NCBI GenBank assembly: GCA_029863005.1
Contig: JAOTWF010000010.1
Span: 1 to 56,594, forward strand
Length of the DNA: 56,594 bases
Direction: 5' to 3'
From: Gammaproteobacteria bacterium
GTDB taxonomy: Bacteria > Pseudomonadota > Gammaproteobacteria > Acidiferrobacterales > Sulfurifustaceae
Below, one piece after another: positions 53,772 through 56,594 of this stretch. The position numbers were made by a program, and so were the translations under genes. The notes under the pieces are model-generated. The model saw only the letters and a list, made by a program, of their open reading frames with translations. It had not been told where the DNA came from and searched no databases. Positions within the stretch are counted from its first letter, which is position 1; each line of letters starts with the position of its first letter.

Positions 53772-54098
53772 ATGTTTTTTGTGAAGATTGCCACTTATGT
53801 CCTGCTGGGGATTCTCCTGTTGCTGCAATACCCGTTGTGGTTCGGAAGCGGCGGCGTCATTACGGTGTGGCAGCTCAACCGGGAGATCGATGCGCAAAAA
53901 AAAGAAAACGCGCAATTGAAGGAGCGTAACCAGACGCTTGAAGCCCAGGTGAACGATTTGAAACAGGGACTCGAAGTGATCGAGGGGCGCGCCCGCTCCG
54001 AACTCGGGATGGTCAAGAAGGGTGAAATCTTTTATCAGGTGATCGACCCCAAACAAACCAACGACACGCCGCCGGATACCAAGCTGGATAAAAAGTAG
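53772..54098 (+). CDS. ftsB: Cell division protein FtsB
   Basis: Small bitopic divisome protein that joins FtsL and FtsQ. The 108-residue product has one membrane helix (about 6-24), a coiled coil from about 30 to 70 (LNREIDAQKKENAQLKERNQ), then the conserved IEGRARSELGMVKKGEIFYQV. A GTG at 53781 would drop three residues and is an alternative start. In E. coli ispD and ispF follow ftsB; here the next gene is convergent and unrelated. Confidence 0.95.
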   Translation: MFFVKIATYVLLGILLLLQYPLWFGSGGVITVWQLNREIDAQKKENAQLKERNQTLEAQVNDLKQGLEVIEGRARSELGMVKKGEIFYQVIDPKQTNDTPPDTKLDKK

Positions 54099-54117
54099 CT
54101 GGGTTGGATGGGGGGCG

Positions 54118-54744
54118 TTAGTCCTGTTCCAGCACGTAGATAAGCAACACAAACAGGAAAAAAAAGAACTCCGCTAACGTGATCAGGTAGACCAGCCACA
54201 CGATCCGGCGCGCGGAGGGTTTCATGGGCATCCAGACCCGACGCAGATACCAGCGCCATCCCGGCAACCACGACCAGCGCTTCAACCGCAGGAAATATAT
54301 CCGCAGCGCCTCGGCCCAGGCATTGAGACTTTTGTCGACCTCCGCTTTGCGTTCTTCGCGCTCCTTGATCGGCAGCAGATCGTAATCATCGGTGATGGTA
54401 ATGCGGCTGCCTTCCCGTGCCGGCTCGATGGTGAACACGGTCCGTTTTTTGATTCCTCCGACGTAGGCGACGGTGAGGCCGTGGCCGGTTTCCGGCATGA
54501 CATTCAGATCAAGGGACAGACGTGTTTTGTTGCTCTGGTTCTCAAATTCGGCATGAAACGTCTCTGGCCCGGTTCTTCGCCAGACATCAAAATAGTAATA
54601 GGGGTTGAGGCGGTACATGGCCTCGACATCGCGACAATGCCGCTGGACCACGTCGGGGGAAAAGGATACAAGAAAGCTGGCCCAGACGGCGTCGGTGGAA
54701 TCCACCGGAGACTTGTGTGCCGGTTCCTTGGAATCTTCACCCAT
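54118..54744 (-). CDS. SRPBCC-like protein with C-terminal membrane helix
   Basis: A 208-residue protein not recognised by name. The first 150 or so residues look like a START/SRPBCC hydrophobic-ligand fold: an alternating beta pattern with FHAEFENQS, VFTIEPAREGSRITITDDYD and a final amphipathic helix. The C-terminal 28 residues (about 181-203) are a single hydrophobic membrane helix (WLVYLITLAEFFFFLFVLLIYV). It would be a tail-anchored cytosolic domain. The start overlaps the end of the upstream universal stress gene by 8 nt. No catalytic motif; function unknown. Confidence 0.6.
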   Translation of the reverse strand: MGEDSKEPAHKSPVDSTDAVWASFLVSFSPDVVQRHCRDVEAMYRLNPYYYFDVWRRTGPETFHAEFENQSNKTRLSLDLNVMPETGHGLTVAYVGGIKKRTVFTIEPAREGSRITITDDYDLLPIKEREERKAEVDKSLNAWAEALRIYFLRLKRWSWLPGWRWYLRRVWMPMKPSARRIVWLVYLITLAEFFFFLFVLLIYVLEQD

Positions 54745-55204
54745 GTCGGTTCGGCACGATCATGATAGGCGCGCGCAGGGATCGGAACAGTTTTTCATCC
54801 AGCATGTGTGACCGAAAGCCGGTTTTTCCCTTGGAGCGTTTTGAGCCCAGAACGATCAGGTCGAAGCGGCCTTTTTTTGCGCGCGCAACCAGGCATTCCG
54901 CAGGCTTCCCGATCACGACCTCGAAGCGATAGCGGATTTTCCGCTTGGCGGCTTCGCGCATCATGCGCCGGATGTGTTTACGGACTTCGCGCTCAAGCTG
55001 GGTTTCCACGTAGTTGGCAAAAATATCGCGGGTGGAGGCGTTATTGAGCCAGTCATCGCCCTGCATGCCTTTCCAGAAATCCGGGACCACGATCAAGTGG
55101 GTGAGAGTGCTGCCGGCGCGACAGAGGGAAAACGCCATTCGCTCGGCGGCGCGCCCCCCCGGTGTTCCGTGGCTGGCCAGCAGGATTTGTTTCGATTCGA
55201 GCAT
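54737..55204 (-). CDS. Universal stress protein (UspA family)
   Basis: A 155-residue USP-domain protein. ILLASHGTPGGRAAERMAFSL near the start and VVIGKPAECLVARAKKGRFDLIVLGSKRSKGKTGF followed by LRAPIMIVPN near the end match the fold (motif VLGSKRSKGKTGF at about 118-130). The glycine-rich ATP loop is only partly preserved, so nucleotide binding is uncertain. It lies on the minus strand downstream of a strong terminator and overlaps the SRPBCC-like gene, suggesting an independent two-gene unit. Confidence 0.8.
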   Translation of the reverse strand: MLESKQILLASHGTPGGRAAERMAFSLCRAGSTLTHLIVVPDFWKGMQGDDWLNNASTRDIFANYVETQLEREVRKHIRRMMREAAKRKIRYRFEVVIGKPAECLVARAKKGRFDLIVLGSKRSKGKTGFRSHMLDEKLFRSLRAPIMIVPNRHG

Positions 55205-55218
55205 GGGAATATTCCGTC

Positions 55219-55259
55219 AAAAAAAACCCCGGTGGCGGCGCGAGGCACACCACCGGGGT
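55219..55259 (-). terminator. Strong intrinsic terminator after the 42-codon gene
   Basis: On the minus strand a 10 bp stem ACCCCGGTGG/CCACCGGGGT (55250-55259 and 55226-55235 in plus coordinates) around a 14 nt loop is followed by eight T's (A-run at 55219-55226). It should end the transcript of the transporter and small-protein genes before the universal stress gene. Confidence 0.9.
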
Positions 55260-55274
55260 CCACTTTTCCGGCAA

Positions 55275-55403
55275 TCAGCCGCCTACAATAACATAAACCA
55301 GAAAGGCGATAGCAAAAGCAATCACCAGAGCGGCCATGTCTTCCGTGCGATCACTTTTGAAGATGGTGAGCGCCGAACCACGATCAAATTTTTCTTTCGT
55401 CAT
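55275..55403 (-). CDS. Small single-span membrane protein beside YeiH-type transporter
   Basis: A 42-residue open frame too short for the usual cutoff. It begins MTKEKFDRGSALTIFKSDRT, then DMAALVIAFAIAFLVYVIVGG, one membrane helix (about 23-40), stop at 55275. GGAGGA lies 8 nt before the ATG (plus 55411-55416). It starts 15 nt after the transporter stop and ends 16 nt before a strong terminator, so transporter and small protein form one transcript. Likely a partner or regulator of the transporter; that is inference from position and topology. Confidence 0.75.
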   Translation of the reverse strand: MTKEKFDRGSALTIFKSDRTEDMAALVIAFAIAFLVYVIVGG

Positions 55404-55418
55404 GAGTTAGTCCTCCGC

Positions 55419-56594
55419 TTAAATGGTTTCACGCACAAACAGCAAGATGACGATGAGCGACCCGATCGCCTTGGTGGCACCGACCACCGAGCCGATCACG
55501 AGCGGCTGCCCGCCGGCCTGCTTGATGGACGCCATGGTGATCTGCATGCCTAGGCCCACCAGACCGAAGGTGAAGAACCAGGCAATGAGAGTGCGGAACG
55601 TCCCGATCATCTTGGCCGTGTGGTACACCGCCTTGTGCGCGTCCTTGAGGATGCCGGTGCTGTCCTTGGACAAAACCTTGGCATTGGCCACGCCACGCAG
55701 GAGCGTGTCATCGTCGATGGACATGATCTTTTTGTTTTCAATCAACCGGGTCAGCGCCGCTTTTTGATCCTCGCGCTGAAGCTTGTCGATATCGGCCTTG
55801 AGCTTGGCCACCTCTTCGTCTTTCAGCAATTTGCTCTTGACCTTTCCAGTCTCCGGGTCGGTCTTGACCAGCGTACTCTCGCTGTTGTCAAAATATTTGC
55901 CCTTGTAATGCTGGGGCGGGGCAAAAACGCCGGTGGACGAAAGGGCGAACATCAGGATGAAGCCCAGCACGAAAAGCGGGAACTTGCCGAAGATCACCTG
56001 ACCAATATTGACCTTGAGGCCGGTCTGTTCGCGCTTCACGTACCAAAGAGCGAGCCACAGGACGATGATCGGCAGGAACAGGACGCGCGTGATGTTGAAG
56101 ATTTCCGCGACCTTGAGGGTTTCGATGCCGGTCGGCTGGAACGCCAGCGCCGCTCCCGCGACCTGTGCCGAGTTGAGGATGCCGGTGCCGGCCCAGGCGC
56201 CGAACTGGATATAGCCCATTCCCAGCGCCTTGCCGACGATCGGGAAGATGAACATCATCAGCACGCCCCAGAGCAGGATGGTGCCGATGGTGTAGGCGAT
56301 TTCGGTGGACTTGGCGCTGACGACCGGGGCCGCGGCGACCGAGGCCGACACACCGCACACGCCCATGCCGGCCGAAAGGACGCCACCCATGGAGTTCGGA
56401 ATATTGCGCCGTGATCCCATCCACAACACCATCCAGACGGAACCCAGCACGAAGAAGCCGATCAACACCACCGACAAGCGGCCGAGATGCGCCAGTTCTG
56501 CCAGACTGTACAGAGTGCCCAACAGGATAACGCCGGATTTAAGTCCAAGACGCGAGAGTCGCACGCCGTTCTCGGCCCAGTCCGGTATCTTGAA
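55419..56594 (-). CDS. YeiH-family putative sulfate exporter, 3' part (cut by window edge)
   Basis: The minus-strand frame is open from 55421 to the right edge: 391 codons are visible and the true start is outside (the GTG at 56564 is internal, since FKIPDWAENG upstream is conserved-looking). Typical features of the PF03601 family are SAGMGVCGVSASVAAAPVVSAK, GTGILNSAQVAGAA and the polytopic hydrophobic pattern. A hydrophilic stretch of about 100 residues (visible residues 225-325, 55620-55922) separates the last membrane groups and is absent from the 349-residue E. coli YeiH. The substrate is not established for most members; sulfate export is a family label. Confidence 0.85.
   Translation of the reverse strand, partial: FKIPDWAENGVRLSRLGLKSGVILLGTLYSLAELAHLGRLSVVLIGFFVLGSVWMVLWMGSRRNIPNSMGGVLSAGMGVCGVSASVAAAPVVSAKSTEIAYTIGTILLWGVLMMFIFPIVGKALGMGYIQFGAWAGTGILNSAQVAGAALAFQPTGIETLKVAEIFNITRVLFLPIIVLWLALWYVKREQTGLKVNIGQVIFGKFPLFVLGFILMFALSSTGVFAPPQHYKGKYFDNSESTLVKTDPETGKVKSKLLKDEEVAKLKADIDKLQREDQKAALTRLIENKKIMSIDDDTLLRGVANAKVLSKDSTGILKDAHKAVYHTAKMIGTFRTLIAWFFTFGLVGLGMQITMASIKQAGGQPLVIGSVVGATKAIGSLIVILLFVRETI

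Follow-up and report, generated by a model that had tools for sequence, protein, structure and literature searches.

Organisation of the s locus

The window analysed here, the whole stretch of 56,594 nt, corresponds to contig C60 of genome G000, and at its end carries on the minus strand, in this order, a transporter gene (T), a small gene (s), a hairpin followed by a T-run, a universal stress protein (Usp) gene (U) and a fourth gene (X) (Table 1). The s reading frame starts with ATG, encodes 42 amino acids (MTKEKFDRGSALTIFKSDRTEDMAALVIAFAIAFLVYVIVGG) and stops with TGA. The gap between the end of the T frame and s is exactly 15 nt and contains a ribosome site proper to s, both as put forward in the original prediction. 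The original prediction held the frame to be too short for routine gene calling, yet common gene finders take frames of 90 nt.

Table 1. Features of the T-s-U-X region, given in window coordinates
Feature	Position	Strand	Basis or remark
T, PF03601 (YeiH-like) transporter, C-terminal 391 aa	55419..56594	minus	start on contig C51 (L002)
Shine-Dalgarno-like GGAGGA for s	55411..55416	minus	7 nt 5' of the ATG, inside the T-s gap
s, small single-span membrane protein, 42 aa	55275..55403	minus	homologues and purifying selection
Codons of the invariant core F-x2-D-R-x-E-D of s (residues 15-22)	55338..55361	minus	directly N-terminal to the membrane helix
Codons of the predicted membrane helix of s (about residues 23-41)	55281..55337	minus	hydrophobic stretch in the sequence and model of the L038 homologue
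Hairpin and T-run between s and U (terminator or attenuator)	55219..55259	minus	fold z -4.94
U, universal stress protein (PF00582), third cassette gene	54737..55204	minus	Pfam match
X, 208 aa, fourth cassette gene	54118..54744	minus	overlaps U by 8 nt

The ends of contigs C51 and C60 have about 127 bases in common, which lie within the T gene; this gene is therefore cut by the assembly. An open frame of 360 codons lies upstream of T on contig C51, in the same orientation. T scored 142.7 bits against PF03601 (Pfam curated cut-off 24.5) and is thus a member of this family, whereas against TIGR00698 (YeiH family putative sulfate export transporter) the fragment contained in the window, which lacks the N-terminus, reached 65.5 bits for a cut-off of 232.6. 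The earlier designation of a YeiH-type transporter consequently stands at the level of PF03601 and has to be qualified at that of TIGR00698, T being a divergent YeiH relative. T also differs from canonical YeiH in length (about 510-600 residues in 78 loci, with the first ATG chosen, versus 333-416 in 30 canonical frames), and from the YeiH/PSE family (TIGR00698, PF03601) in the company of s, Usp and X, to which an inserted charged loop is added in the T proteins that we call type A.

The 70-nt stretch 55205-55274 showed a folding energy of -38.1 kcal/mol (z -4.94), and none of 200 shuffled sequences was as stable. The stem (55226-55259), followed by the T-run, lies 16 nt after s, in agreement with the strong terminator proposed at this place; the consensus terminator scan omits it because the loops considered in that scan are limited to 8 bases and the loop of this hairpin is longer. 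Of 70 loci, 42 showed a hairpin with a T-run in the s-U interval; the corresponding counts averaged 2.0 (range 0-5) over 20 dinucleotide shuffles and were 0-2 for T pieces of the same length and 8 on the reverse strand. No sigma-70-like site was detected in 54000-56594 with a scan that covers one promoter type. The hairpin after s implies that T-s may exceed U-X in amount, or that U-X may have their own promoter.

Conservation of the small gene

The searches that used s covered the Pseudomonadota. Querying 398 phylum genomes with the single sequence detected eight relatives besides the gene of its own genome, at 47-64% identity and with E-values no higher than about 2e-4. In 369 genomes of the class, a profile search detected 21 genes distributed over 20 genomes, all with E-values of at most 4.2e-11, the next match being at 0.002, and a wider profile detected s in 10 of the 398 genomes of the phylum sample at E 2.3e-13 or better, with the next match at 0.027. 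In total, searches with s alone yielded 29 clear-cut genes from 28 genomes, the own genome among them, namely 20 loci, the second copy of G693 and eight further phylum genomes. Weak s-like matches at L012, L013, L015, L016 and L117-L126 were discarded because no T-type transporter adjoined them; 11 further weak class matches without loci were dropped on E-value, and so were the weak phylum matches L166 and L167, which were also without T. L014 had a low single-sequence score to s, yet it is a true member of the type B described below.

The s gene codes for a protein and is subject to purifying selection, and the 42-residue frame of the original prediction is real. In a codon comparison of 101 s coding sequences, pN was lower than pS in all 498 pairs of 70-97% nucleotide identity; the same was observed in 41 of 41 disjoint pairs, with a pooled pN/pS of 0.235, and the two shifted frames used as a control gave 1.21 and 2.54. 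Differences at the three codon positions numbered 287, 146 and 646 (1863 codons). Residues F15, D18, R19, E21 and D22 were identical in 101/101 coding sequences, while R8, G9, L12, A25 and L26 were nearly invariant. The core F-x2-D-R-x-E-D was present in each of the 107 extracted s sequences, which represent 99 distinct proteins with a few genes counted twice, and whose lengths ranged from 39 to 65 residues (median 43). An SD-like 4-mer was located upstream of 76 of 78 s homologues (shuffle mean 16.4, maximum 29). In 29/107 homologues (for example L027, L048, L064 and L079), many of them alphaproteobacterial and Chromatiaceae-type records, we found an N-terminal extension of about 12 residues with a (D/N)IDLQ-type motif, and its conservation suggests a putative additional binding site.

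None of the Pfam or NCBIfam families was matched significantly by s of the window, and the best E-value for s together with 99 aligned relatives (100 members) was 0.019 in either library, the commonest sub-threshold family being DUF131 (10/100 members at E up to 1). A sequence search of the PDB gave a best E of 0.7 for the s profile, to an unrelated chain, and none at E 0.1 for the fused profile.

Nearly all basic residues of s lie on its N side, where K+R average 4.2, compared with 0.14 for the six C-terminal residues; this suggests an N-in topology, although this call is soft because the acidic residues on the N side (mean 6.6) outnumber the basic ones. In a read-through co-fold, the part corresponding to the s homologue of L038 was helical with pLDDT block means of 82-90, the helix beginning at the DRxED residues, and the stretch before it was poorly predicted (block mean 45, residues 631-640); this co-fold informs on confidence along the chain only and neither shows nor excludes docking of s on T.

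Association of s with one transporter branch

In a scan of 84,980 species genomes with T as query, 358 relatives were obtained and the best 80 were kept, all belonging to Pseudomonadota by their titles except L088, titled only bacterium. A gene for s was found just downstream of T in 78 of these best 80 of 358 relatives, and conversely T preceded all the s genes found without using T (29/29), the T gene of G153 being cut by the contig end. In contrast, s was absent behind the 49 other PF03601 genes examined (0/30 canonical and 0/19 other), and it therefore does not accompany PF03601 proteins in general. In the phylum sample, PF03601 was present in 188 of 398 genomes and s in 10, nine of which were among those 188 and the tenth was G153. 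The small frame is therefore conserved downstream of related transporters, and the partnership that had been proposed for it holds within one PF03601 branch and does not extend to the other PF03601 genes.

A tree of 71 transporters built with FastTree (36 of type A, both Marithrix included, and four of type B versus 31 others) separated types A and B from the rest with a support of 0.97; the support was 0.992 for type A, which bears the loop insert, and 1.0 for type B, which does not. Both types were found on one strand of L019, and each is accompanied there by a separate s and Usp. The type B cassette of this locus (L019:6718-8563) comprises a T without the loop insert, an s with GSETMGS...KMTLFKDDRSEDWGA and Usp, and its s lies about 2.6 kb past the first one. 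A separate subgroup of long PF03601 proteins (L182-L189, frames of 512-579 residues) formed its own cluster in the tree; neither s nor Usp was detected within its 1.5-kb flanks. Transporters 73-74% identical to T were present in L056 and L073, from metagenome bins titled Bordetella parapertussis, titles that look like misassignments. No relative of T was found in plasmid records at E 1e-30.

In 71 of the 78 loci T and s were 5-19 nt apart, supporting the proposed co-transcription of both genes; in the remaining ones the distance was 26, 27, 31, 68, 85, 294 and 330 nt. L038 and L057 carry inserts of about 300 nt between T and s, with the start codon and sequence of s retained. Inverted repeats were observed in this gap, CCTGACAGG...CCTGTCAGG in L038 and another one in L057. 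In the two Marithrix loci (L075 and L077) T was present and s was undetectable, so s is not indispensable everywhere. The repeat CCTGACAGG...CCTGTCAGG was found directly 3' of T in L075, and no such repeat was seen at that place in L077. A long open frame in L055 raised the suspicion of a T-s fusion, but the frame was not that of T, and none of the 78 loci was flagged as carrying a fusion.

T and s, adjacent as originally described, turned out to be the front part of a conserved four-gene cassette composed of T, s, a universal stress protein and X. Where at least 700 nt of sequence was available, Usp followed s in 65 of 71 loci (70/78 in all); where at least 1500 nt was available, X was present in 61 of 68 (64/78 in all), always after Usp in the 64 loci having both. 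X matched no Pfam family significantly, Polyketide_cyc2 coming closest at E 0.12, and carries a C-terminal hydrophobic stretch. Usp was present in the four type B loci examined, whose flanks were too short to judge X. In L032, L038, L057, L063, L082 and L090 both Usp and X were undetected despite sufficient room and s was kept, from which it follows that s goes with T and not with U. X was also undetected despite room in L085, and one of the two G693 copies (L107/L181) kept s with no Usp within 0.9-1.5 kb.

Possible role of s and comparison with known systems

Deletion of yeiH renders Salmonella highly sensitive to sulfite, and the YeiH-type carrier, called poorly characterised in the same source, has recently been reported as its main sulfite-resistance factor (PMC12880088); a YeiH homologue of Hyphomicrobium, up 526-fold with thiosulfate, has been proposed as a sulfite exporter (PMC11582611), these phenotypes and proposals concerning distant relatives of T. 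DsrA was over the cut-off in 23 of the 28 genomes with s and in 12 of 28 without s (Fisher p 0.005), in a non-random comparison set in which all the s-less genomes came from the class of the window and 7/28 genomes with s from other classes. In the s-less set, DsrA was found in 7 of 13 genomes picked for sub-threshold s matches and in 5 of 15 from listed non-matching rows; split in this way, the comparison is weaker than its pooled value would indicate. For SoxB the figures were 20/28 and 14/28 (p 0.17), and two genomes with s (G102 and G185) had neither dsrA nor soxB over the cut-off. DsrA works in the cytoplasm and SoxB in the periplasm, so the DsrA link would fit an export of cytoplasmic sulfite, for which it is only suggestive.

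We consider that s is probably an accessory subunit with a single membrane span, dedicated to a divergent elevator-type sulfite exporter of the PF03601/YeiH family, and that it would stabilise or gate this exporter. Two traits of small transporter-binding membrane proteins, a single helix and a genetic tie to one transporter (78/80 and 29/29), were found for s. Translated 15 nt behind T, s would insert with the charged N-terminus on the cytoplasmic side and pack its helix against T, so that the invariant FxxDRxED motif, placed at the cytoplasmic membrane edge, may stabilise or gate the transporter. T would most likely expel sulfite formed in the cytoplasm during sulfur oxidation, Usp and X would be probable regulators in the same pathway, and U-X may be made at a different level than T-s because of the hairpin after s. 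A more elaborate form of this proposal, which we regard as rather unlikely, is that T-s-U-X constitute a self-contained regulated sulfite-export machine of sulfur oxidisers, in which the FxxDRxED motif would act as a latch coupling the soluble Usp, and X, which is possibly SRPBCC-like, to the gating of T; s would thereby serve T as a membrane adaptor in the way SbtB serves SbtA, with the conserved hairpin setting the subunit ratios.

The frequent presence of Usp after s (65/71 loci with room, and 4/4 of type B) could also be explained if s were mainly a membrane anchor or adaptor whose motif recruits the nucleotide-binding Usp, and X, with T as a neighbour of the same pathway. Such a function would agree with the position of the motif, on the side of the soluble Usp if the N-in topology is right, and an interaction between a Usp and a transporter has been reported elsewhere (PMC5549992). 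However, s persists beside T in the six loci where Usp and X were undetected and in the G693 copy where Usp was, and among the 29 genes there was no s with Usp but without T, so we judge this role improbable. The arrangement of a short frame, a terminator-like hairpin and then U-X is furthermore the layout of an attenuator, and s might be a leader peptide whose translation controls the hairpin and hence the expression of Usp and X. A leader would need neither the selection at the amino-acid level nor the invariant polar core and the conserved helix, and s is retained where U and X were undetected; as the sole function of s it appears very improbable, although an attenuator role in addition to that of the protein is possible. 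Least credible of all is that s might be a small selfish peptide, such as a hydrophobic toxin, lying in the operon by chance: the size and hydrophobicity of s fit those generally known for type I toxins, but it has a fixed place behind one T branch in many families, a conserved ribosome site and a conserved charged core, and no orphan copy was seen among the 29 genes.

The near-obligate partner of about 40-65 residues and the conserved four-gene cassette found for the T branch offer a direct genetic entry to the possible gating of such an exporter. YeiH-type carriers were present in 188/398 sampled phylum genomes, and the s profile allows the annotation of a gene covered by neither Pfam nor NCBIfam. 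Among the titles and abstract openings listed in a literature search, we found no description of a small protein beside a PF03601 transporter or of the T-s-U-X cassette.

Among the known systems, YeiH has been noted as similar to a Na+/H+ antiporter (PMC12880088), and PF03601 is mentioned in a paper on CPA/AT transporters (PMC8396727). With Foldseek, the best PDB match of the co-fold model had an E of 0.033, and none reached 0.001. VIA-align, used as a second look at the fold of T, placed SbtA at the top (Z 13.4, rmsd 4.3, 251 residues), tied with NapA (13.0) and CitS (12.8), with Z values near the level at which the tool warns of helical bundles, and many of the 50 rows were Na+/H+ antiporters, bile-acid or citrate carriers. 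SbtA and T are 11% identical, so this match can bear on fold only. The SbtA-SbtB pair would resemble T-s in that a transporter is accompanied by a separately encoded dedicated regulator, but SbtB is a PII-like signalling protein and s a membrane peptide.

Closer in kind is AcrZ, the 49-aa partner of the AcrB pump (PMC10903887), a small membrane protein that touches the membrane part of its transporter and alters its activity (PMC7267776), as s may do with T. The two differ in that no match of s to an AcrZ family was present among those listed, and in that the partner of AcrZ is an RND pump and not a putative elevator-type carrier such as T. To our knowledge, acrZ is not encoded directly behind acrB. 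KdpF, a small subunit of the KdpFABC potassium pump, shares an operon with the other genes of this pump; it differs from s in partner and motif, and the matches of s to the KdpF models (PF09604 and TIGR02115) were below the cut-offs and far below significance (2/100 members with a best E of 0.22 in Pfam, and 1/100 at E 0.28 in NCBIfam). Single-span transporter partners such as AcrZ and KdpF are thus a known kind, of which s would represent a new family.
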